A stretch of DNA of 64,000 nucleotides from Elusimicrobiaceae bacterium. Its GTDB lineage: Bacteria; Elusimicrobiota; Elusimicrobia; Elusimicrobiales; Elusimicrobiaceae. The notes below the pieces were generated by a model, which did not search any database, was not told the DNA's origin, and worked only from the letters and a program-made list of their open reading frames with translations. The first letter of the stretch is position 1. The number at the start of each line of letters is the position of its first letter. The DNA is taken from positions 1 to 64,000 of the forward strand of contig JAGCWX010000013.1 of NCBI GenBank assembly GCA_017961585.1. The letters run 5' to 3'. Below, in pieces: positions 44,035 through 58,817 of the stretch. The translations under genes and the position numbers were made by a program.

Positions 44035-45546
44035 ATGTTTGATAAAAAATCCTACACACTTTATAAATTTCACAAACAATTAAACCAAGCGTTTCAAAAC
44101 AAGCGCGAATTATTGGAAAGTGCCTTGCCGGTGCTGCGCAATTTGTTTAAGCTGGACCGCATTTACTTTTTTGATTGGCAACAGGAGCGGGCGATTCTTT
44201 CGTTGCGAATGATGTGCAAAAAAGAATATTGCATGGACAAGCAGGAAGACATTTCCGTAATCGGTGAACCGGCTTTCTTAAAGCAACTGTTGCGCGAAGG
44301 CATTACCGAGACGACCGACCTGAGCTACCCTGCCATTTACGTGCTGGTGAAGTGGCAACGCCCCAGCATGGAACTGCGTGGCGGCGAAGTGCGCACGTAT
44401 ATGCAAGAAAAAGTAGGGGTGCTGCGTTTGGAACGCTTCCGCAAAAACCGTCCGTTTACGCCGCAGGAAAAGGAACTCATTCAAGCGTTGGGGCAAGAAA
44501 TTTCACACAATTTGCGCAACACGGAAATTGACCAGGCCAAAAACCAGCGTTTAAACGTGTCTACGGCGCTTAACGATTTGTCCACGGTGTTTGCATCTTC
44601 GTTGCGGCTTAACGACGGCTTGGAACTAATTTTGCAAGGGGTGCAAAAGTACTTCCGTTTTGACCGCGTGCGTTTGTATTTGACGGACTCTTACGGCCGG
44701 CGTGTTAAAAGTGCGTTGTGTGTGGATATTTCCGGCCAAGTAACGCACCGCAAAGGGGACGAAATTACCGAGCAAGAACAAGCCCTGGTGAAAGAGGTTT
44801 TTGACTCGGCCACTACGTACCGTTCTACCCGCAGTGTAATTTACATTCCCTTAAAAGTGCAGCGCAGCAAAGTAGGTTTTTTGGCGTTTGATAATATTTT
44901 GTCCCGGCGGCACATTGGGTATTTGGATTTTATTTCGTTGCAGCAGTTTGCCTCGCAAATGGCGCTTTCTATTGACAATGCGCGCTTGTTTGAACGCGTG
45001 CAAGAATTGTCTAATTACGACGAGCTTACCCGCCTGCCGGTGCGGCGTTATTTTAATGAAAAATTATCGGAAGAAATTTACCGTGCCAAGCGGTTTAATT
45101 TAACGCTGTCGCTAATGATTATTGACATTGATTTTTTCAAACAAATTAACGACAACTACGGCCACCAAATTGGGGACTGGGCTTTGCAAGAAGTCAGCCG
45201 GGTGATCCGTCATAGTTTACGTCAGACCGACGTGCCCTGCCGTTTTGGCGGGGACGAAATGGTCATCATGCTCCCCAGCACCAACAGTGAAGAATCCAAG
45301 GTAATTGCCAAACGTCTGCACGAGCGCATTACCGCCATTGTGCTGCCCACCAAGTATACCGGGGGGGAAGAAATCCATATTTCTATCAGCCAAGGGATTG
45401 CCACTTTCCCGTCGGATGCGTCCAGCACGGAAGAGCTTTTTGCGCAGGCAGACAAAGCGCTTTACGTGGTAAAGCAAAACGGGCGCGGGCACTTTGCCGT
45501 CTACCGCGAGGTGGCCGACCAAGTGCAGGGATACAGCAAAGAATAA
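44035..45546 (+). CDS. Diguanylate cyclase with two GAF domains
   Basis: A 503-residue soluble protein. Two GAF-like sensor domains span about 15-170 and 185-335, then the GGDEF domain 345-495. The active site is RFGGDEM (405-409; Met instead of the final Phe, still compatible with activity) and an inhibitory RxxD (RQTD, 396-399) lies five residues before it. DIDFFKQINDNYGHQIGD carries the metal ligand and substrate residues. It should make c-di-GMP from GTP with product inhibition. It starts 2 nt after the binding-protein gene, so the two are co-translated. Confidence 0.92.
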   Translation: MFDKKSYTLYKFHKQLNQAFQNKRELLESALPVLRNLFKLDRIYFFDWQQERAILSLRMMCKKEYCMDKQEDISVIGEPAFLKQLLREGITETTDLSYPAIYVLVKWQRPSMELRGGEVRTYMQEKVGVLRLERFRKNRPFTPQEKELIQALGQEISHNLRNTEIDQAKNQRLNVSTALNDLSTVFASSLRLNDGLELILQGVQKYFRFDRVRLYLTDSYGRRVKSALCVDISGQVTHRKGDEITEQEQALVKEVFDSATTYRSTRSVIYIPLKVQRSKVGFLAFDNILSRRHIGYLDFISLQQFASQMALSIDNARLFERVQELSNYDELTRLPVRRYFNEKLSEEIYRAKRFNLTLSLMIIDIDFFKQINDNYGHQIGDWALQEVSRVIRHSLRQTDVPCRFGGDEMVIMLPSTNSEESKVIAKRLHERITAIVLPTKYTGGEEIHISISQGIATFPSDASSTEELFAQADKALYVVKQNGRGHFAVYREVADQVQGYSKE

Positions 45547-45929: not shown

Positions 45930-48900
45930 ATGAAAAAAATTACTTCTTTCCTTCGCACTATTTTTACCAAACAGGCGGCAACCCCGTCCATTTTAACTAT
46001 CTTACTTCTTGTGTCCGCAGCACCGCTGTGGGCCCAAACCGTCAACACCGTAAGCACCGGTGTGTGGTATAATGACGGCGTAAATGCAGCCACTGACGGT
46101 ACGGATTATGCCTTGTATTGTAATAATACTGGTCCTGAAGTTACTGGAGACAATAACAAAGATAGAAGTTTTGTATATACCCCTGCTCCGAAAAGTAATA
46201 GAAACCAAAATGATCCGTGGGCTAGCTCGGCCTTGATTGAGTACGATCAACCCTATCCTTCTCCAACTGCTGCCAATAATTACCCCAACCACTGCTTGGG
46301 GTTGTGTGCGGCTTATACATGTAGCAACTTGCCTGTGGGGCAGACCACGTATTCCGTGGCATTCCCGTTGCAGCGCATTACGTTTGATATTTTTAAATAT
46401 TACAACGGCCAAAACCCCAAAAACCCGGACCAAGCCCCTACCATCCGCTCCATTGATGTGTACCCGGCGCAGGATGTGACTGAACCGAGTAAGTATACCT
46501 GCGGTTCATACCGCTGTTCCAACGCGGGACGGGATGATACTAATGAATCTCAAATTGCAGAATGTTTAGGCGCCCACTGGGTTTGTGATGGGACAACCAA
46601 GCCGGTAACATCAACTACGAACGTAACTTGTGCTGTAAGTTATAATTCGGATACTGCAGAATTGGATTGGTATTGCCAGGATTCAAGTAAAAATGATTAT
46701 ACGAGCTATGTTTCTTGCGATCTTGATCCAAGCCAACTGACTGATACAACAGTGGTGGCGATTTGTAGAGGAGGTGGAGCAACAAAGCAGTGCACATTGA
46801 AGGGATCGGGTGCGCACAATCCGTGCACTATAAACGATTTACAAGTTGCTCAAACAAATGGTTCTTATTGTTGGCCCACTACAATGACTCGTGAGGAAGC
46901 TTGTGGTACTGGGCCGGGAAAGACACCAACTAAAGGGACCAGTGGTGGATCTGTGGTTGGCGGGCAAACCTGTTGGCCATATGCGGACGTGGTGTGGCGT
47001 AAAAGTGCGGGGATATGTACTATTCAGTCCGATGCTGACGTATTTAGAGGTTGCTGCCAACGTGAAGGCCATAGTGATTGTTTAGTATTTGATAACAACG
47101 GGGCTGAAACCAACGAACAGCTTAACTTCTGCACCGGGTGGGATGGATTTTATGAAATTGCCGGTGAATTTGGTAAATCCAACGGGCAATTCGGGTTCCG
47201 CGCTACGGCGTATACCAACGTCCCTTCGGACGGTGTGATTGCGGACCGCATTGAAATTGAAGAAACGGGCGTTTACCCCGGCCACAATGGCGCAACCCAA
47301 ATCCCGATACAAATTGACGTGACTAACGTGCACACTGTGCGCAGTACGCCTTCGCTGATTGGGTCCATTACGCCGGTTGCCGCGCAACCTTATACATTTA
47401 CCTATCGTTTAAGTAAAGATGCGGATGTGCGCATTGCTATCTTTGATGCATCCACCGCAGATAATGCTGCTTATGCGTATGATGTCGTTCCGGGGACTAA
47501 TAATAGTACTAACCAAGCAAGTTTTGCCGCCGGCGGCGATTACGAGGCCGCTACAGGTGTAATCGTCCGTACGTTAGTGGACTGGCAGCCGCGCACCGGC
47601 GAAGGTATTAAAGGAACTGAAAAAGATACCCAAATTGCGGATTTTGACTCTTGGGATGGCCGCCACGACGAAGGATTCTTGTTGCCGGCCGGTAACTATA
47701 TTGCCTCTATTCAAGCTAAATCTCAAGACGAATGGGATGGGATAGATTTCTCGCGCGCGGTTACGCGCCAAGTATCCTTGGACCCCTTGAAACTGACGGA
47801 TGTGCGGGTAACCGGGCTGAACAAGCAATCCACCGCGTATGCTACCATTTCTTACGTGCCGACGGAATCCGCCACCGTGTATTGGGAAGTATATACCCCC
47901 GGTACTGTATTTGAAGGGCCCAATGGCGTATCCGAAATTTTAACCGATTCCGCTACTGCTACCGGGACCGGGCCTGCCGTTAAGGCAAATACGGGTTCTT
48001 TGGTATATCGCCACATAGAGCAAAAAACCCGCCAAATGAACTATACCGACAAGTGGGACGGCACCTGCCAAGTGTCTGATGTCACCAACAAGGCGTTAGC
48101 TCCGGCTACCATTGCTAAAGGGGCTACCTTCCCGAGTGGTGCTTATGAATCTGATGGGGTCACCCCTAAGACGGGTACGTGTAATGAGGATGCCGGTTGT
48201 ACCTATTATTATCACGTTTATCAGCCCAATGTTTCATCGTGTGTGCGGTATTATGCCCTCCACGAAACATTGCCAAATGGCACGGTTTGTACAAAGGATA
48301 ATTTGTTGTATAGTAATGCTACGGGGATGTGCGAAGAAAACTATGCTTACGGTGCCCCGATGCCGGATGGAAACTACGTTTATGTATTGTGGGCAGAAAT
48401 ACCTTATAATGGTAAATACGTAAACGCTATCGGGTCTGATGATGGGAAACCCAAATTTACAACGGGTGCAACCTGTTCCAAAACAGGTAAAGAAATTAAT
48501 AACCAATGTTTTACTGGTGTAAAGACCTTAAAATATACCGTGGGTACCATGGAGTTGGAACGCGGCTTGGTGGGCATTACGTTGCAGCCCGTCAGCTACG
48601 CTACCATTGGTTCTAGCCCTACGGCGTATGGGCTTGATCCGTTTATCTTTAAATACTCGCTGGATAGGCCTGCCCAAGTGATTGCCACGGTTGAAAATAC
48701 CGCCGGCGTAGTGGTAAAACACTTGACGCTGGAAGAAGGCGAGCCGAATGTTTCCCAACAGCTTAATACCATCACTTGGGACGGGCGCGACGATCAAGGC
48801 CGTATGGTCTACCCCGGAACGTATATGTTCCGCGTGAAGGCCATGGACGCTATGTTCCCCGCGCAAAGCAACGAAGCCATTACCACCTTCCCTGTGGATA

Positions 48901-51350
48901 TGTACCGCGTGGTGGATATGGAAACCACCCACGTATATGGGGATGCCAATGCCAAGGCAACTATTTCGTATCACTTGTCCAAACCCATGAACGTGCAGAT
49001 CAATATATATAATAAGGATGTTGTCATCCCGGATTATAATGGTCTGACCGGGGAGTATAGTGATTATGAAGTGTTATCGGTGTGTAACGGGAAGCTGGAA
49101 CATGTGGCAAAGGAAGATTGGGACAAAGCTACTGGTCGCCCTAGCGTATCCGTTGATTGCTCGGATGTTCCCTCGCAGACCATGCCTAGAGAGATTGTTA
49201 CAAATGGATCTATTGTGGAATATAAGGAGTATGGTAGCCCTGCTAAGTATTATCGTAAGACTTGGACGGCTGCGGAAGAATATAACTTGGATCCGACCAA
49301 ATACCGTGGAGATGACGGAAAAGAATATTCTATTCCTAAATATACCATTTACTTGAAAATGGAACAAATTAAAACCACCACCCAAGGTGCCGGCGTGGTA
49401 TGGCCGCCCCGCATCTGCGATAAGAAAACGGATGGTACGGATCGCGGTACGGAGAGCATTTTTACAGGTGGGGCTGTTGATCCGGCCAAAGTAAACCAGT
49501 ATAAAGTTGCTTGTATCTACGTAAACGATAAAACATTTACCAATTACCCGGCGAATGCTGTAACGGCTGCCTCGGGCGCGGTGGATGTGCGCTTGCAACC
49601 GATCCACACGATTGAACGCTCCAGCTTGAAGACCGGCGATGAGGCCCTTGTGATGGAAGAATGGGATGCGTTGTACTTCTACAACCCCACTCCGTCCGGC
49701 TCCAAGTATACACAAGAACAAATTAACAAGTGTAAAAACGCCACCGAAAAGGCCAACTGCCCGTACGGTATGATCCCGGACGGTGCGTATCCGTTCTACA
49801 TCTCGGCCCGCTCCAACGAGCCCTTCAACCGCTACTATTATAGTAGGCAGATGGATGGAGTCAGCAACGTGTACAGCGTTTCGGACCAACCGTTTAGAAC
49901 TGCGGCTGAAGTCAAACAAGAAAGCTACCTCTACGCGTCGGATAAGTCGGTCGGGAACATTTATGTAACCCGCGGCGCGGTGTACTTCTTGGACGACTCG
50001 GTACATGTGTACTCCAACTCGCCGCAGATGTTTAATACTTCTACCACCACCATGAAGTATCTGCCGCCGTACGAGATTAACTTCTCTATCTCCCGCGCGG
50101 CTACGGTAGAAATTGCCATCGTGGCGTTGCAGGATGGCGTCTGCTCGCCGATTACCGACAACGTCAAATCCGGCAAAGTAAATACCTTTGAATCCCGCAC
50201 CAACGTGGCGGGGGACATCTGCCGTGTGCTTTCGTATAAGCCCAAGAATATGTCCTCTCAAGCGTTTGATGCTACCGCCATCCACAAAGTAATTTGGGAC
50301 GGCACCGACCATAACGGCAACTACGTCAAATCCGGCATCAATTACGAAATCCGCTTAACGGCCCGTAACTACCCGGATGCCACCATGTACGAGCCCACGG
50401 TCAAGAGTATTACCACCACGGTCAACATCATGAAAGTGTTTGACCTCTTAGAGGTGGATAACTACGCTATCTTCCAACGTGACACGGATATGAAGATTGG
50501 TTACCAGGTATCTGTGCCGATGAAAGTAGCTGTTCAAATTTTGAAACCCGGTACCACCATCTACGACTGGACCAAAGGTACCCTGCGCGACCCTGCCACC
50601 GGCAAGGAAGTAAAAGATATCAACGACGTGCTTGTGCGCGCGATTGTGGGTATCCGCTCGAGCAATATGCTCATCCAAGAAGTGTGGGACGGCCGCGACT
50701 ACGCTCAACAGGAAGTGCCCGACGGCGTTTACCCCTTCCGCTTCGTAACCGTGCCCGGTAACGAAACGGCCGCTATTGACAGCGTAACGGGTGCTATTGC
50801 TGAAGGATTTGGCGACGATTCCTCCGAAGATTCAACCAAGTGGAAAGTAAACTACGTGGCCGATGATCAAGAATATACTACCTTGCATAAAGCGACGGTA
50901 GCTATCGGCGACGGGCGGTTCGTCTGCGAAGATTGGAAGAAGACTGTGTTCTTCTACCCCAACCCGCTGCGCGATGCCAGCAAAGGTACCTTGGAAATTA
51001 CCAAGATGCCCGTGCCCGGTACGGTATCTATTAAGTACTTCAACTTGGCCGGCGACCTGGTGCGCGATAGCGACTACACCTGTGTGGATGCCAATAACTT
51101 CCAAACCACCATGGGTAAGGATTTCTACTTCCAACCCGATAACAACATCAGCGATACGCGTGTGCCGCTTGATGAAAACGGTGACTTGGCTATTAAGAAC
51201 ATCCGCAACGCTGCCTTGCGCTGCAAATGGGACCGCACCAACCAGCACGGCAAGAAAGTAGCACGCGGTGTGTATTTCGGGCTGATTGACTTTAAGGCCT
51301 TTAACGGGCGCGAACATTGCCAAAAGGTGGTTAAAATCTTAATCCCCTAA
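45930..51350 (+). CDS. Giant secreted surface protein with FlgD-like repeats and a T9SS-like C-terminal domain
   Basis: 1806 residues with a signal peptide (about 1-35, ending PLWAQ). The first 470 residues are Cys-rich with low similarity to known families. From there on, FlgD-Ig-like modules recur, each with W-D-G-R/T, G, then V/P-x-G-x-Y: Trp at 575, 950, 1456, 1586 and 1767. The last 110 residues (FFYPNPLR, then a beta-rich repeat with VARGVYFG, ending KVVKILIP) resemble type IX secretion C-terminal sorting domains and FlgD-like ends. A PorV-like protein follows immediately. Likely exported to the cell surface, possibly as adhesin or sheath; function unknown. The ribosome-binding site is weak. 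Confidence 0.85.
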   Translation: MKKITSFLRTIFTKQAATPSILTILLLVSAAPLWAQTVNTVSTGVWYNDGVNAATDGTDYALYCNNTGPEVTGDNNKDRSFVYTPAPKSNRNQNDPWASSALIEYDQPYPSPTAANNYPNHCLGLCAAYTCSNLPVGQTTYSVAFPLQRITFDIFKYYNGQNPKNPDQAPTIRSIDVYPAQDVTEPSKYTCGSYRCSNAGRDDTNESQIAECLGAHWVCDGTTKPVTSTTNVTCAVSYNSDTAELDWYCQDSSKNDYTSYVSCDLDPSQLTDTTVVAICRGGGATKQCTLKGSGAHNPCTINDLQVAQTNGSYCWPTTMTREEACGTGPGKTPTKGTSGGSVVGGQTCWPYADVVWRKSAGICTIQSDADVFRGCCQREGHSDCLVFDNNGAETNEQLNFCTGWDGFYEIAGEFGKSNGQFGFRATAYTNVPSDGVIADRIEIEETGVYPGHNGATQIPIQIDVTNVHTVRSTPSLIGSITPVAAQPYTFTYRLSKDADVRIAIFDASTADNAAYAYDVVPGTNNSTNQASFAAGGDYEAATGVIVRTLVDWQPRTGEGIKGTEKDTQIADFDSWDGRHDEGFLLPAGNYIASIQAKSQDEWDGIDFSRAVTRQVSLDPLKLTDVRVTGLNKQSTAYATISYVPTESATVYWEVYTPGTVFEGPNGVSEILTDSATATGTGPAVKANTGSLVYRHIEQKTRQMNYTDKWDGTCQVSDVTNKALAPATIAKGATFPSGAYESDGVTPKTGTCNEDAGCTYYYHVYQPNVSSCVRYYALHETLPNGTVCTKDNLLYSNATGMCEENYAYGAPMPDGNYVYVLWAEIPYNGKYVNAIGSDDGKPKFTTGATCSKTGKEINNQCFTGVKTLKYTVGTMELERGLVGITLQPVSYATIGSSPTAYGLDPFIFKYSLDRPAQVIATVENTAGVVVKHLTLEEGEPNVSQQLNTITWDGRDDQGRMVYPGTYMFRVKAMDAMFPAQSNEAITTFPVDMYRVVDMETTHVYGDANAKATISYHLSKPMNVQINIYNKDVVIPDYNGLTGEYSDYEVLSVCNGKLEHVAKEDWDKATGRPSVSVDCSDVPSQTMPREIVTNGSIVEYKEYGSPAKYYRKTWTAAEEYNLDPTKYRGDDGKEYSIPKYTIYLKMEQIKTTTQGAGVVWPPRICDKKTDGTDRGTESIFTGGAVDPAKVNQYKVACIYVNDKTFTNYPANAVTAASGAVDVRLQPIHTIERSSLKTGDEALVMEEWDALYFYNPTPSGSKYTQEQINKCKNATEKANCPYGMIPDGAYPFYISARSNEPFNRYYYSRQMDGVSNVYSVSDQPFRTAAEVKQESYLYASDKSVGNIYVTRGAVYFLDDSVHVYSNSPQMFNTSTTTMKYLPPYEINFSISRAATVEIAIVALQDGVCSPITDNVKSGKVNTFESRTNVAGDICRVLSYKPKNMSSQAFDATAIHKVIWDGTDHNGNYVKSGINYEIRLTARNYPDATMYEPTVKSITTTVNIMKVFDLLEVDNYAIFQRDTDMKIGYQVSVPMKVAVQILKPGTTIYDWTKGTLRDPATGKEVKDINDVLVRAIVGIRSSNMLIQEVWDGRDYAQQEVPDGVYPFRFVTVPGNETAAIDSVTGAIAEGFGDDSSEDSTKWKVNYVADDQEYTTLHKATVAIGDGRFVCEDWKKTVFFYPNPLRDASKGTLEITKMPVPGTVSIKYFNLAGDLVRDSDYTCVDANNFQTTMGKDFYFQPDNNISDTRVPLDENGDLAIKNIRNAALRCKWDRTNQHGKKVARGVYFGLIDFKAFNGREHCQKVVKILIP

Positions 51351-51362
51351 GGCGGGTGTTCG

Positions 51363-51371
51363 TGGTATAAT
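51363..51371 (+). promoter_or_regulatory. Extended -10 promoter of the PorV-like gene
   Basis: TGGTATAAT with TG at 51363. The start would fall near 51378, leaving only about 4 nt (AGGA) before the ATG at 51382. This would give the pilus cluster its own transcription start inside the larger operon. Confidence 0.6.
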
Positions 51372-51381
51372 ATTATAAGGA

Positions 51382-52368
51382 ATGAAAAACTTTATGAAGA
51401 TATCAAAACTTGTAGTTGCTAGTTTAACGGTGGGGTTGCTAAGCACCCCTGCCATGGCTATTCACAAGAATGCCGGTACCAGCGCAGGCGCGTTCTTAAA
51501 AATTGACGCCGGCGCCCCGCGTGCCCAAGCATTAGGGAATGCCTTCGTCTCCGTGGCCGACGGGCCCGAGGCGTTGTTCTGGAACCCGGCCGGTTCGGCT
51601 GCCGCTACCACGCGCGAAATCCAGTTTACCTATATGGATTACTTGCAAGGGTACAAAGCCCGTACGTTGGCGTATCTGCAACCGATCGGTAAGACGATTA
51701 TCGGGTTAAGCGTCAACTACATGGATATGAAAAACTTTGATTTTCGCGATTGGCAAGGCCGTCCCAATCCGGAAGTAGGTATCCCGGTGCAGAACTTTGT
51801 GGGTAGCTTGTCCATTGCGCGCGGTTTTATCAACCAAAAATTGCAATTGGGTGCTACCGCTAAATACATTACAGAACGTTTGGACAACGGCTCGGGCCAT
51901 AACCATTATGACAACGTCGGTTTTGACGTGGGTGCCAAATTGCGCTTGGTAAATTGGTTGGGTTTAGGCGGTGCGTTGGTAAACATCGGCGATAGAGACG
52001 AAATGCCGCGCGGCCTTCGCTTAGGGGCTGACTTAAATACCCGCTACTTTACGATTTCCGGCGAATATATGAAATATGTGGACGATAAAGCCCGCTATGG
52101 TGTAGGTTTGGAAATCCACATCCCCGAAGATTTGTTGCAAGTGGCTCGTTTTGACTTGCGTGTAGGTTACTATACGCGTGATAACGCCGGTATCAACGAA
52201 GACAGTTGGGTCAAACAAGTAGGGTTGGAAGAAACCTCCCGCGTTTCCTTTGGGTTTGGTATTTACAGCGCCGAACTGTTTGGATATGGGGCCTCGCTTG
52301 ATTATGCCGTTACGCCGTTTGGGGCGTTGGGTACGTCGCAACAGATTGCCGTATCCGTGCAATTTTAA
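51382..52368 (+). CDS. PorV/PorQ-family outer membrane protein
   Basis: A 328-residue protein with a signal peptide (cut near AMA, residue 28) and a beta-barrel-like sequence with alternating pattern. It opens with GTSAGAFLKIDAGAPRAQALGNAFV and EALFWNPAGSAA, the signature of PorV/PorQ proteins (UPF0164), which act with type IX secretion substrates in Bacteroidota. Its position right after a protein with a T9SS-like end is suggestive. A second in-frame Met at codon 5 is an alternative start. Confidence 0.88.
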   Translation: MKNFMKISKLVVASLTVGLLSTPAMAIHKNAGTSAGAFLKIDAGAPRAQALGNAFVSVADGPEALFWNPAGSAAATTREIQFTYMDYLQGYKARTLAYLQPIGKTIIGLSVNYMDMKNFDFRDWQGRPNPEVGIPVQNFVGSLSIARGFINQKLQLGATAKYITERLDNGSGHNHYDNVGFDVGAKLRLVNWLGLGGALVNIGDRDEMPRGLRLGADLNTRYFTISGEYMKYVDDKARYGVGLEIHIPEDLLQVARFDLRVGYYTRDNAGINEDSWVKQVGLEETSRVSFGFGIYSAELFGYGASLDYAVTPFGALGTSQQIAVSVQF

Positions 52369-52807: not shown

Positions 52808-53293
52808 ATGCATATTATTCATAGGAGGCGCGGACAAGTAACTGTAGAGTTAATGCTTATTTTGCCTGTATTTATGCTGCTTATTTTCTTTGTGCTTGAA
52901 TACGGCAATATAGCTTACCGCACCTTGGTATTAAACCACGCTTCCTATGAATTTGCACGCATTGCTTCGCTAACGGGGGTAGATAAGCCCAGCGGCAATG
53001 CAAACCGAACCATAATGGTTCAGAAAATTGATCAGGCCAAACGCAAGATTTTTGGGGCCGAGGCCGAACGTCTTAATGTACAGGTAAAGGTGGAAACAAC
53101 CGGTATAGACCCGATGTATAAACGGCACCGCCACCAAGACGTGATTGTAACGGTGATTTATCCGGTAAGGTTGGCGTTCCCGGGGACAAGTTGGTTGTTG
53201 GCGGATGCGCCCCGCCGGGAAGGAATGCGAAAAATAAAAGCTACCGCGCGTATGCCGGTGGAGAAATCGTATCTGAGTTCAGATATGAAATAA
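52808..53293 (+). CDS. TadE-like pseudopilin
   Basis: A 161-residue protein with a prepilin-type start: RRRG before QVTVELML (Glu at +5), a single hydrophobic helix, and a soluble C-terminal part with YEFARIASLTG, typical of TadE/TadG-like proteins. It starts 3 nt after the Flp pilin gene. Confidence 0.85.
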   Translation: MHIIHRRRGQVTVELMLILPVFMLLIFFVLEYGNIAYRTLVLNHASYEFARIASLTGVDKPSGNANRTIMVQKIDQAKRKIFGAEAERLNVQVKVETTGIDPMYKRHRHQDVIVTVIYPVRLAFPGTSWLLADAPRREGMRKIKATARMPVEKSYLSSDMK

Positions 53294-53330: not shown

Positions 53331-54086
53331 ATGAGAAGAGGTTTTTTATTACCCTTGTTACTGGCTATTTTGGCAGCCATTGTATATGCAATGATTGTCA
53401 GCAGTGCTGAGAAAAAATTGAATGCGTCCAAAAACGTGAAATACGTATTTGTTCCGACGCGTGATATTAAAGAACGTGAAGTCATTAAAAGGGATTTTGT
53501 AAAAACCGTCCCTGTGCCGGCTGCCTACCTACAGAAAGATGCTTTTACTTACAGCACGGAAGCAGATTTTAAAGCGATTGAAAACGCGGTAGCCCGTATT
53601 CAAATCCCCAAAGGAAACCAAATTTCCAAATATGCTATTACCTCCCTTTCGCCGGAAGCGGGGCTTTCCAGCAAAATCCCGGTGCAAATGAGAGGATACA
53701 TCATTACCGATGTCCCGATAGCGACCGCCAGCTTAATCAAACCGGATGATAACGTAGATATTTTGTTTACGTTTAAGGCCGATATGAAAGACGGTTCTCA
53801 ACAAAACGTGGCTGTTACCCTTTTGCAAAACATCAAAGTGCTTGGTGTGGGGGGCGATTTAGGACAAGGTTTGGATGCTAAAACCGCCAGCTCCCTTAAA
53901 AACAAAGACGAAGAGGCCTCTGCTTATTCGGATAGTACGGCGTTGGCGTTGTCTCTTTCTCCGCGTGATGCGCAATACTTGGCCTTGGCCCAACAACAGG
54001 GTGAAATTTCGGTCATCTTACGTTCTCACGGGGATGTAACCAACTATATGATGGAGATTGCTACTTTCCAAAAATTATTTAATTAA
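53331..54086 (+). CDS. cpaB: Flp pilus assembly protein CpaB/RcpC
   Basis: A 251-residue periplasmic protein with an N-terminal signal anchor and an SAF-type domain (VFVPTRDIKEREVIKRDFV), followed by VDILFTFKA and LSPRDAQYLALAQQQGEISVILR, the typical CpaB blocks. It helps the secretin function in Tad systems. AAGGAG lies before the ATG. Confidence 0.9.
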   Translation: MRRGFLLPLLLAILAAIVYAMIVSSAEKKLNASKNVKYVFVPTRDIKEREVIKRDFVKTVPVPAAYLQKDAFTYSTEADFKAIENAVARIQIPKGNQISKYAITSLSPEAGLSSKIPVQMRGYIITDVPIATASLIKPDDNVDILFTFKADMKDGSQQNVAVTLLQNIKVLGVGGDLGQGLDAKTASSLKNKDEEASAYSDSTALALSLSPRDAQYLALAQQQGEISVILRSHGDVTNYMMEIATFQKLFN

Positions 54087-54851: not shown

Positions 54852-57179
54852 ATGGCAGAGACGAAAGAAACTCCAAAATCGGAAGCAAAAATTATTGCTT
54901 TTTCAGGCCCGAAGGAAGGGGCCGGAAAGACGACTCTTACACTTAATTTGGCGTTGGGTTGGGCAGGCATTCAAAAACGTCCGGTCCTTATTGTTCCGTT
55001 GGATCCTCTTGCGCGCCAAGAGCATAGCTTTTATTTAAACATCAAAAAACCAGTCAGCGTAGCGGATATTTTGCAAACGCTTGGCAATACCAATATTGCC
55101 GTAGTGGGCGGATTGTTGCGCGGCAAAATTTCTATGTCTCAATGGGGCGTAGGGCTTTTACCGTTGGGCAATACGCGTGCGCAAGTGGCTTCTATCAGCC
55201 CTAAAATTTTGATTCCTATTTTATCTCGCTTGGCGCAGACGTTTGATATTTTCCTGGATGTGGATTCCAGTTTCCCCATGCAGGCATTCGCGTTTGATAT
55301 TGCGGACCGTATGTTTTGGGTGTCGCAAGCTACGCGCACTCACTTAAACGCCACCGTACAGCTTTACAACGATTATAAAGAGCAACACTATCCCATGGAT
55401 CGTATCAGCGTGATTTGTAACGCCTATGATATGCCTGGGTCCATCCCTTACGAAGAAGTAGAACATTTCTACAGTTCTTTAGGGCAAGAAATAGATGTAT
55501 TTTTGCCGTGGGATGAAGATGTGATGGCCACCTCCAACCGCAAAGAAGTGGAAATTATTACCAACCCGCAGGCCGAATGGGTAAAAGGGTTACGTTTGAT
55601 TTTGGCTAAAATCCGCGATTTGAAATCCGCCCCGAAAGATTGGACGGCTTCGGTTTCCGACGAGGAATTTACGCAGGCCGCTCAGGACATTTGGAGCCCG
55701 GTACTCTTTAATGGCGGTAAGACGGAAAGTGCCGAAAGTCACGTGGCAGCCGAAGAGGATATGGGCCGGACCAAACTCTCTTTTTGGGACGATTTGAAGC
55801 AAAAAGTACACAAAGAAGTCGTACACACGTTGGAAGTTGAGCATATTGTCATCAGCGATGAGAGCTCTGCCAGCGAGCAGACCCGCAAACGGGTGTCTGC
55901 CATTGTGGATGATATTTTGCAAAAACAGCCCAATTTGCAGTTTTCCCGTGAACAACGGGCTCGTTTCTCGGCGGAATTATTAGATGAAATTTTGGGGTTA
56001 GGGCCGCTGGAAGTACTCATGCGTGACCCGGCTGTTACCGAAATTATGGTAAACGCCTTTGATAAAATTTTTATTGAACAAAAAGGTAAACTCACGCTTA
56101 CCAAATACAAATTCCGCAACAACGACCAAGTAGTACAGGTAATCAAGCGTATTGTGGCACCGTTGGGACGTCGTATTGACGAATCTGTGCCGCTTGTGGA
56201 CGCCCGTTTGAAAGATGGTTCCCGTGTGAACGCAATTATTTCACCGCTTGCGGTTTCGGGGCCGACGCTTACTATTCGTCGTTTCTCGCAAAAACCTTTC
56301 GGGCCGGAAGATTATTACCGTTTTGGCACCATCAGCCCGGAATGTATGGAATTTATTAAACAGTGCGTTAAAATCCGTAAAAATATTATTGTGTGCGGGG
56401 GAACCGGCACCGGTAAAACTACGTTCTTGAACGCTATCTCAGGTTATATTGCCGATGACGAACGTATTATTACCGTGGAAGATACGGCCGAACTTCGTTT
56501 ACAGCAACCGCACTGGGTGTCGCTGGAATCTCGTCCGCCAAACGTAGAAGGAAAAGGGGCCGTAACGATTCAAGATTTGGTTAAAAACTGTTTGCGTATG
56601 CGTCCGGACCGCATTGTGGTAGGGGAGTGCCGTGGTGGCGAGGCCTTAGATATGTTACAAGCTATGAACACCGGTCACGAAGGTTCACTTACTACGATTC
56701 ACGCCAACACGCCGCGCGACGGATTATCTCGTTTGGAAGCTATGTGCTTGCAAACGGGGGTGGATTTGCCGGTGCGCGTCATTCGCGAAATGATTTCCTC
56801 AGCCGTGAACATGATTGTGCAGTTGTCTCGTTTTTCGGATGGTTCCCGTAAGGTAACCTACATCACCGAAATGCACGGGCAGAAAGACGGCATCATTCAA
56901 TCTACCGATTTGTTCCGCTATGTACAGACGGGTGTAGATGTTAATGGGAAAGTGCAAGGGGTGTTTGCCCCTACCGGGGAGTTACCCACTTTCTTTGATG
57001 AATTTGAAGCCAAAGGGTGCCCCGTTTCTAAAGAAGTGTTTACCAAAGGAGCCGTTCCTTTGGGGGCAGACGGAGAACCCGATTTAAAAGCAGCTGGGCA
57101 GCAGACGCAGGGGGAACATGTTCCTCCGCCACCTGCGGCGCCCCATACGCCGCAACCTCCCACGCCGCCGGCTGTGTAA
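54852..57179 (+). CDS. cpaF: CpaE-CpaF fusion: MinD-like and Tad secretion ATPase
   Basis: A 775-residue protein. Residues about 10-265 are a ParA/MinD-like domain (P-loop [17 protein letters not shown]) equivalent to CpaE. Residues about 330-700 are the CpaF/TadA ATPase: [17 protein letters not shown], Walker [11 protein letters not shown] near 517, [41 protein letters not shown] Pro/Ala-rich tail ends it. CpaE and CpaF are separate proteins in Caulobacter, so the fusion links localisation and motor functions in one chain. AAA energy for pilus assembly. Confidence 0.93.
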
Positions 57180-57191
57180 AGTAAGGTAAAT

Positions 57192-58817
57192 ATGAGAAAA
57201 AGTCGTATCCTTATAGCTTTGATTGTTTTGCTGACTTGTGTATGCGGGCCGGCGGAACTGTTTGCGCGTTCTTTGGATACGAAAGATTTGGATAAAATCC
57301 AGTGTGCGCAGGATAAAATGCGTATTTTGGCTGGATTTTTTAATACCGAAGATAAAGAAAAAGAAAAAACCTATACCCTTACCAATTTATGCGGTGCCGC
57401 TGCCAACAAGCCCGTTACCATGCCGTCCTGGTTTGAACAAGAATTGGAACGGATGGACAAAAACAAAGTGTTATTTGTTACCACCGATAATCAAACGTAT
57501 AGCGAGGTGGACTTGTGGCGTCAGGCATTTTCAAACGTGTATTTGTATTTGGACCGTGCGGCTGAATCCTTAGACCCCAACAAACCCATTGTGCTTGAGC
57601 AGCTTTCCCGCGGGTATGTAGGAAATCGGTTGAACTTGATGGCTACAATTGACCGGTTGAATAAAGACCTGTTGCGCGGGAACCAACTGGTGGTTATGAA
57701 AGACAGCATGGAAGGGCGTGCGCGCTCCATGTTATCCACGCTGGAACTTATTAACAATGAGTTTTTTAGTACGATTGAATCTTTCTCCAGCCCGGTAGCC
57801 CAGCGCGATGAGAAATATCGTCAATCTGTCATGGCCGTAGTGGTGTTGGCCAACCATTTGTATTCCCAGTTTATGGGCTCTCCTATCCCGGCCAATCCAC
57901 CGGATCCTAAAACCTATCAGACCACTCGGGCCGACCGACTTTATACGCTTACGTTGATCATTATAGGGTCTTTATTCGCAGGGATGTTTGTGTATTTCCT
58001 GATCAATAACAAACGCGAATCTATTGACCGTATGATGGAAGATTACCGCGCAAGAAGTGTGGTATGGGCAGATGATTTCAACCGTCAGTTTGTCAGCATT
58101 GATGTAAAGTATATCGTGCTGGGAACCATCGCGATTTTTATGGCTATTGGCTTTTTCTTCGGGTGGATGATTGGCGGATTTATGGGCGTTTTCATATTCT
58201 TGGCGTTCCTGTTTGTGGGGGGAGTGGTCAGTATCCGCGTTCCGTCCTCTTTACTTGAGGCCCTTAAACGCCGCCGCGGGGTGAAAGTCAACAAACAGCT
58301 GATGGATGCACTGATTTTACTTTCCAACTCACTCAAGTCGGGTATGGATATTGTACAAGGGTTTGAGATGGTTTCCAAAGATTTATTGCCGCCTATTTCG
58401 GATGAATTCGGGCTGGTGGTGAAAAACTACCAGTTGGGAACTCCCTTTGAACAAGCATTAGACGGTATGGTAAACCGCGTAGATAGCCGTATGTTGGCCC
58501 ACGTGGTAAAAGCCATTATTATTCAACGCCAAGTCGGTGGTAACTTGCCGGTCATCTTTGCCCGTTTGGTGGAAAATATTCGCGAAGAGAGCAAATTGGA
58601 AGAAAAACTGCAGGCCTTAACGGCTCAACAGCGTATCCAATCTTTGGTTGTCAGTATTATGCCTTTTGCAATGATGGCTATTATGTTTATGTTCAACCCG
58701 GACCAGATGCTTTCTTTCTATTTGAGTCCCTTGGGAATGATTTTGTTCTTGTTCTGTATCGTGTGGATTTTCATCGGTATGCAAGTGCTTAAAAAACTGG
58801 GAGATATCAAGGTATAG
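57192..58817 (+). CDS. tadB: TadB-like platform protein with large N-terminal extension
   Basis: 541 residues, while TadB is usually about 300. Residues 1-25 form a signal peptide or first helix, and 26-255 a probable periplasmic helical region not recognised by eye. Helices at about 255-275, 305-325 and 328-350 precede the T2SF/GspF domain (about 370-500; LMDALILLSNSLKSGMDIVQGFE, HVVKAIIIQRQVGGNLPVIF), with two C-terminal helices. It forms the inner-membrane platform with TadC. Confidence 0.88.
   Translation: MRKSRILIALIVLLTCVCGPAELFARSLDTKDLDKIQCAQDKMRILAGFFNTEDKEKEKTYTLTNLCGAAANKPVTMPSWFEQELERMDKNKVLFVTTDNQTYSEVDLWRQAFSNVYLYLDRAAESLDPNKPIVLEQLSRGYVGNRLNLMATIDRLNKDLLRGNQLVVMKDSMEGRARSMLSTLELINNEFFSTIESFSSPVAQRDEKYRQSVMAVVVLANHLYSQFMGSPIPANPPDPKTYQTTRADRLYTLTLIIIGSLFAGMFVYFLINNKRESIDRMMEDYRARSVVWADDFNRQFVSIDVKYIVLGTIAIFMAIGFFFGWMIGGFMGVFIFLAFLFVGGVVSIRVPSSLLEALKRRRGVKVNKQLMDALILLSNSLKSGMDIVQGFEMVSKDLLPPISDEFGLVVKNYQLGTPFEQALDGMVNRVDSRMLAHVVKAIIIQRQVGGNLPVIFARLVENIREESKLEEKLQALTAQQRIQSLVVSIMPFAMMAIMFMFNPDQMLSFYLSPLGMILFLFCIVWIFIGMQVLKKLGDIKV

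Follow-up and report, generated by a model that had tools for sequence, protein, structure and literature searches.

This report concerns two adjacent genes in a 64,000-nucleotide stretch of DNA from an Elusimicrobiaceae bacterium (positions 1 to 64,000 of contig JAGCWX010000013.1, assembly GCA_017961585.1; hereafter the window). One encodes a giant protein with multiple immunoglobulin (Ig)-like modules and a C-terminal domain (CTD) of the sorting type, and the other encodes a PorV-family outer-membrane barrel. The two are probably the cargo and the dedicated carrier of a divergent, type IX-like SprA-PorV-CTD route, by which an adhesin linked to a Tad-pilus locus would be displayed on its own barrel. 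Homology of the three core parts, the pairing of cargo with carrier, the nearly phylum-wide occurrence of SprA and the conserved linkage to Tad were all demonstrated. In the proposed route, the cargo would leave the cytoplasm by Sec and, as homology suggests, would cross the outer membrane through a SprA-type translocon encoded on another contig. To judge from gene pairing and homology, the neighbouring PorV-family barrel would capture the C-terminal Ig-like domain, and the cargo would be retained at the surface, anchored by the barrel, as are type B substrates. The Ig stalk and the N-terminal beta-sandwich may constitute an adhesin made together with the Tad pilus, as their conserved linkage suggests.

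The host genome is 1.49 Mb in size and 98% complete. An earlier note on the window, drawn up from its letters, had treated an elusimicrobial host as a supposition; the host was confirmed to be a gut bacterium of the Elusimicrobiaceae, and the related contigs of metagenome-assembled genomes belonged to Elusimicrobiaceae, Elusimicrobium and Ca. Avelusimicrobium, many of them from rumen and gut. Both open reading frames are intact and lie 31 bp apart (Table 1), and the giant protein has orthologues in the order's two families as well as in one complete genome.

The C-terminal domain and the barrel

The CTD carries the landmarks FYPNPLR ... WDRTNQHGKKVARGVYFG ... CQKVVKILIP, and 26 orthologues drawn from two families show almost no variation in the elements PNP, N.AGDLV, W..N..GK.VA.GVY and CQ..KKILIP. 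A CTD profile built with the CTDs of relatives included (A4) ranked the CTDs of PorZ (E 2.3e-10) and PorU (1.3e-7) first among PDB entries, followed by 8glk_D (0.0012), a chain that represents a CTD in a SprA-PorV entry, and by flagellar FlgD (0.0044). The fold of the domain, predicted with moderate confidence (predicted local distance difference test, pLDDT, 69.5), matched the PorU CTD with a Z score of 9.2 and a root-mean-square deviation of 2.8 over 100 residues, a match with which the Vpr Ig domain ties. By these sequence comparisons, the CTD family is nearer to type IX CTDs than to FlgD, and the type IX sorting-like end that the earlier note had read in the protein was borne out by the conserved domain and its profile ranking. 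In addition, six CTDs encoded by PorV-linked genes of relatives were compared with TIGR04183, the type A sorting domain (cut-off 23): three of the five that are not orthologous to the giant protein passed (26.6, 32.3 and 30.0), and the sixth, from an orthologue of that protein, scored 20.5.

The barrel passed the NCBIfam model NF033709, PorV_fam (Table 1), as expected from the earlier placement of the gene in the PorV/PorQ family, and its profile (A2) found PorV (6h3i_F, E 3.6e-4) as the sole PDB match. Such matches required profiles: when SprA, PorV and the cargo were searched against the PDB as single sequences, no useful type IX match emerged. As a separate observation, two PorV orthologues (G013:C4:15969 and G025:C135:12911) have an in-frame TAA inside the match and are possible pseudogenes or assembly errors.

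The SprA homologue and other type IX parts

A full-length homologue of Sov/SprA is encoded in the host genome by a 1792-residue open reading frame that lies on a separate contig (C36) and adjoins LptF/LptG genes. The whole protein matched TIGR04189 with 101 bits (E 2.9e-29; equivalog cut-off, 200), and a profile of 19 SprA orthologues matched SprA alone in the PDB (E 8.4e-20), the alignment consisting of three collinear stretches spanning residues 148-1564. The homologue was found in 166 of 198 Elusimicrobiota genomes, including 135 of the 142 good ones. Judged by this distribution, the core of the type IX route is near phylum-wide in Elusimicrobiota. The absences, among those listed (all but 12), were all in one family (f10; genus g31) and mostly in small genomes, which suggests loss during genome reduction. 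The genomes that lack SprA are chiefly of 0.4-1.4 Mb and of one family.

As for the remaining parts, searches made without a positive control found PF01364, the C25 peptidase of PorU, in 0 of 61 genomes, gave matches to the PorU model NF033707 that were confined to its CTD part (positions about 860-1095), and detected neither GldM (0/198 at E <= 0.001) nor GldN (0/198), with GldL and GldK not searched for. A single weak GldM match of 15 bits was seen in one of 61 relatives. The absence of the PorU peptidase, GldM and GldN is provisional because of the missing positive control. Since the other core parts were not found, SprA was not taken to prove that the type IX system is complete.

A complete type IX system may nevertheless be present, in which PorU, PorL/M and PorK/N would have diverged beyond the reach of the NCBIfam profiles and PorV would act as in Bacteroidota. 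The divergence of SprA itself to half its cut-off and the uncontrolled negative searches would accord with this explanation; we nonetheless consider it unlikely, given that GldM and GldN had no match in any of the 198 genomes, that PorU was matched only in its CTD part, and that several paired carriers are found in place of a single general PorV. Because the searches, made without a positive control, recovered neither GldM nor GldN nor the peptidase domain of PorU, "derived" fits the SprA-PorV-CTD route better than "canonical", and because the equivalog cut-offs were not reached, it is not a canonical type IX member. The type IX-like or derived export route with adjacent cargo and barrel that the earlier note had proposed is thereby supported, as far as sequence can tell, by the affinity of the CTD and by the SprA homologue. 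In the search for core genes that the note had suggested, Sov/SprA was recovered, whereas the PorU peptidase, GldM and GldN were not. The contrary outcome that it had named, a CTD matching FlgD alone in a genome devoid of core genes, did not occur.

Cargo-carrier pairing and its interpretation

The PorV family is multiplied in relatives, with 5 to 29 matches per sister-family genome. Searches of four genomes with the barrel profile yielded 23 PorV-family genes, of which 19 lie immediately downstream of a CTD gene, at gaps of -33 to 145 bp, and none precedes such a gene; a leave-one-out profile decided which genes counted as CTD genes. The carriers therefore look dedicated to single cargoes. 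In the host genome, the barrel profile found one PorV and the CTD profile one CTD protein, which form the sole pair detected, and the CTD profile likewise found one CTD protein apiece in three other genomes (G031, G092 and G090). With SprA retained in gut genomes and only one CTD protein found there, SprA is left without another recognised client.

This one-to-one pairing, together with the lack of a physical link to SprA, would also be expected if the PorV-like barrel alone exported its neighbour in a two-partner-like manner, independently of SprA. We regard such a mechanism as highly improbable, since the PorV-family proteins of Bacteroidota are carriers docked on SprA (PMC12635249), and since nearly the whole phylum carries SprA, whose loss accompanies the loss of CTDs.

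Among known systems, the SprA-PorV-CTD route shares with type IX type A (P. gingivalis and F. johnsoniae; SprA/Sov, PorV and a TIGR04183 CTD) a homologous translocon, the carrier family and an Ig-like CTD with YPNP and GVY. It differs from type A in that PorU, GldM and GldN were not detected (no positive control), that PorV is multiplied and paired with single cargoes, and that the host lies outside the Fibrobacteres-Chlorobi-Bacteroidetes (FCB) phyla. Type B substrates each have their own carrier (PMC12635249), and the SprB-SprF pair (PorP/SprF carriers) similarly has one carrier gene beside each giant surface adhesin; here, however, the carrier is of the PorV family instead of PorP/SprF, and the CTD resembles type A. 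A broader picture, which we advance tentatively as possible but doubtful, is that SprA-based export in Elusimicrobiota would operate without the PorLM motor and the PorU sortase, each cargo exiting the translocon on a PorV-type barrel of its own, and that in gut lineages the translocon would be reduced to a single adhesin working with the Tad pilus.

Several results weigh against the SprA-PorV-CTD route. The barrel scored below the equivalogs of both PorV (24.2 vs 250) and PorQ (54.5 vs 220), and the TIGR04189 matches obtained in 61 of 61 genomes examined were all below the cut-off. The SprA gene is unlinked to the cargo-barrel pair. When the profile search of the C-terminus proposed in the earlier note was made, FlgD_ig modules were recognised in the giant protein (Table 1), whereas TIGR04183 and TIGR04131 were not listed for it at E <= 1. 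The canonical energy chain and the sortase are, provisionally, unaccounted for. Co-occurrence of SprA and CTDs, in itself a point in favour of the route, was pronounced (CTD in 94 of 166 genomes with SprA vs 2 of 32 without; Fisher 3.8e-8), but the test is confounded by genome reduction and the CTD proxy was stringent. Finally, the linkage to Tad might indicate that the giant protein is part of the pilus instead.

Type IX genes were described as absent outside the FCB phyla in a 2024 paper (PMC11285876) and as confined to Bacteroidetes in an earlier survey (PMC4793230), and the open-access literature searched yielded no account of a type IX-like system in Elusimicrobia. The near phylum-wide SprA, paired carriers and CTD cargoes of Elusimicrobiota change this known distribution. 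Should the motor and the sortase prove to be absent, what SprA minimally needs and what drives the release of the complex of carrier and cargo become testable questions, most simply approached in genomes in which a single translocon accompanies a single detected carrier and a single detected cargo.

Two further observations concern the pairs. Second cargo copies with the same CTD ending, in tandem or nearby, were seen upstream of a single PorV gene (L183:4764-13210, L045:10990-11466 and L050:1267-4962). In one sister-family genome, the protein L049:2403-3728, encoded close to the cargo gene, showed weak similarity to the PorP/SprF family (21.5 bits, below cut-off).

The Tad-pilus locus and the layout of the giant protein

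The cargo-barrel pair forms the head of a Tad-pilus locus, a position that the earlier note did not mention and that emerged from the present analysis. As in known Tad pilus loci, which have already been reported in Elusimicrobia (PMC6668835), TadE, CpaB, secretin, TadA and TadB-type genes are found here, directly downstream of the pair (Table 1); the CTD-PorV pair, which heads the locus throughout the order, is not part of the Tad definition. Both families retain the order cargo-PorV-Tad, as does G090, a genome of the host's family that forms a single contig of 1,643,562 bp, where a GGDEF gene also precedes the pair and SprA again adjoins an LptF/G-like gene. Among the sister-family loci, one has cargo and barrel in a single frame and others are interrupted by masked stretches.

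Strict linkage to the Tad locus within the order, and the short secretin inside that locus, would fit a giant protein that is a pilus tip or outer-membrane adhesin leaving by the Tad secretin, with the PorV-like barrel as a pilus accessory and SprA serving others. This arrangement appears quite improbable to us: paralogous CTD-PorV pairs recur in relatives in numbers exceeding one Tad locus, and the gut genomes keep SprA with the giant protein as their only CTD protein found. The giant protein is a conserved neighbour of the Tad proteins and shares no domain with them.

Table 1. Coordinates of the features in the window and the evidence for each
Feature	Coordinates	Strand	Evidence
GAF-GGDEF diguanylate cyclase, upstream of pair	44035..45546	+	Pfam GGDEF 1.3e-46; same position in complete G090 genome
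Giant multi-Ig CTD protein, 1806 residues, putative type IX-like cargo / surface adhesin	45930..51350	+	Pfam FlgD_ig E 4.6e-21, four stretches
Signal peptide, about residues 1-36, probable cleavage LWA/QTV before Gln	45930..46037	+	read by eye; orthologues likewise start AQT / AQQ
N-terminal module, residues 37-475, predicted beta-sandwich with variable Cys-rich insertion	46038..47354	+	per-segment conservation and model
Six internal FlgD-Ig-like modules	47325..50849	+	repeat profile from orthologues; four also by Pfam
C-terminal sorting-type domain, residues 1660-1806, YPNP ... KVVKILIP	50907..51347	+	CTD profile, fold match, invariant columns
PorV-family outer-membrane barrel, 328 residues, putative dedicated carrier	51382..52368	+	NF033709 90.3 bits vs 90
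TadE-like pseudopilin, first Tad-locus gene	52808..53293	+	Pfam TadE 6e-12
CpaB/RcpC	53331..54086	+	TIGR03177 113 bits vs 71
Short secretin, 248 residues	54098..54844	+	Pfam Secretin 1.4e-42
TadZ(MinD/ParA)-TadA ATPase fusion	54852..57179	+	Pfam CbiA 2e-7 and T2SSE 4e-62
T2SSF-domain protein, TadB-type	57192..58817	+	Pfam T2SSF 6.4e-17

The mature cargo and its orthologues appear to begin with Gln (AQT, AQQ; window 46032-46045), recalling the Q-rule of Bacteroidetes (PMC5837995); no such start was apparent in the PorV and SprA of the host genome. The Cys-rich first third of the protein, which the earlier note had left unrecognised, proved to be a conserved N-terminal domain, in which the Cys-rich part (about residues 181-400) constitutes an insertion that, by segment-wise conservation, varies within the genus and is absent from sister-family orthologues. 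The N-terminal domain of an insertion-free orthologue was modelled as a beta-sandwich (pLDDT 70; predicted template modelling score 0.69). No clear fold match was obtained for this domain (Foldseek best E 6e-3), and its structural ties were weak and not decisive, with adhesin repeat domains level with glycosidase domains (Z 8.9).

The internal modules, of which at least five had been anticipated, number six by the repeat profile from orthologues (residues 466-603, 621-826, 887-990, 994-1300, 1361-1490 and 1494-1640). In fold and in their W-D-G...G-Y signature they resemble the FlgD Ig-like domain (PF13860) and Vpr-type Ig domains, from which the giant protein differs in having no flagellar context and in its terminal domain, which matches type IX CTDs better than FlgD. 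Identity with flagellar FlgD was rejected, as the best FlgD model gave 55 bits, far below its cut-off of 230, and PF13585 (CHU_C) gave no match above its cut-off, controls included (giant protein, 17.1 vs 27). Sister-family genomes also contain FlgD_ig-bearing open frames some 13,000 to 17,600 residues long, which would encode extremely large putative surface proteins (G037:C11:39408, G043:C54:24898, G038:C6:189680 and G059:C3:104817).

An Rfam scan returned tRNAs only, and scans for sigma-70 promoters and terminators stayed close to chance level. Within the Tad locus, only about 86 residues precede the secretin domain of the short secretin, which leaves the usual periplasmic N domains little space. 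The TadZ-TadA fusion matched TIGR03819 at E 4.9e-98, yet under the cut-off (328 vs 373), and proteins of similar size occupy the same place in relatives.
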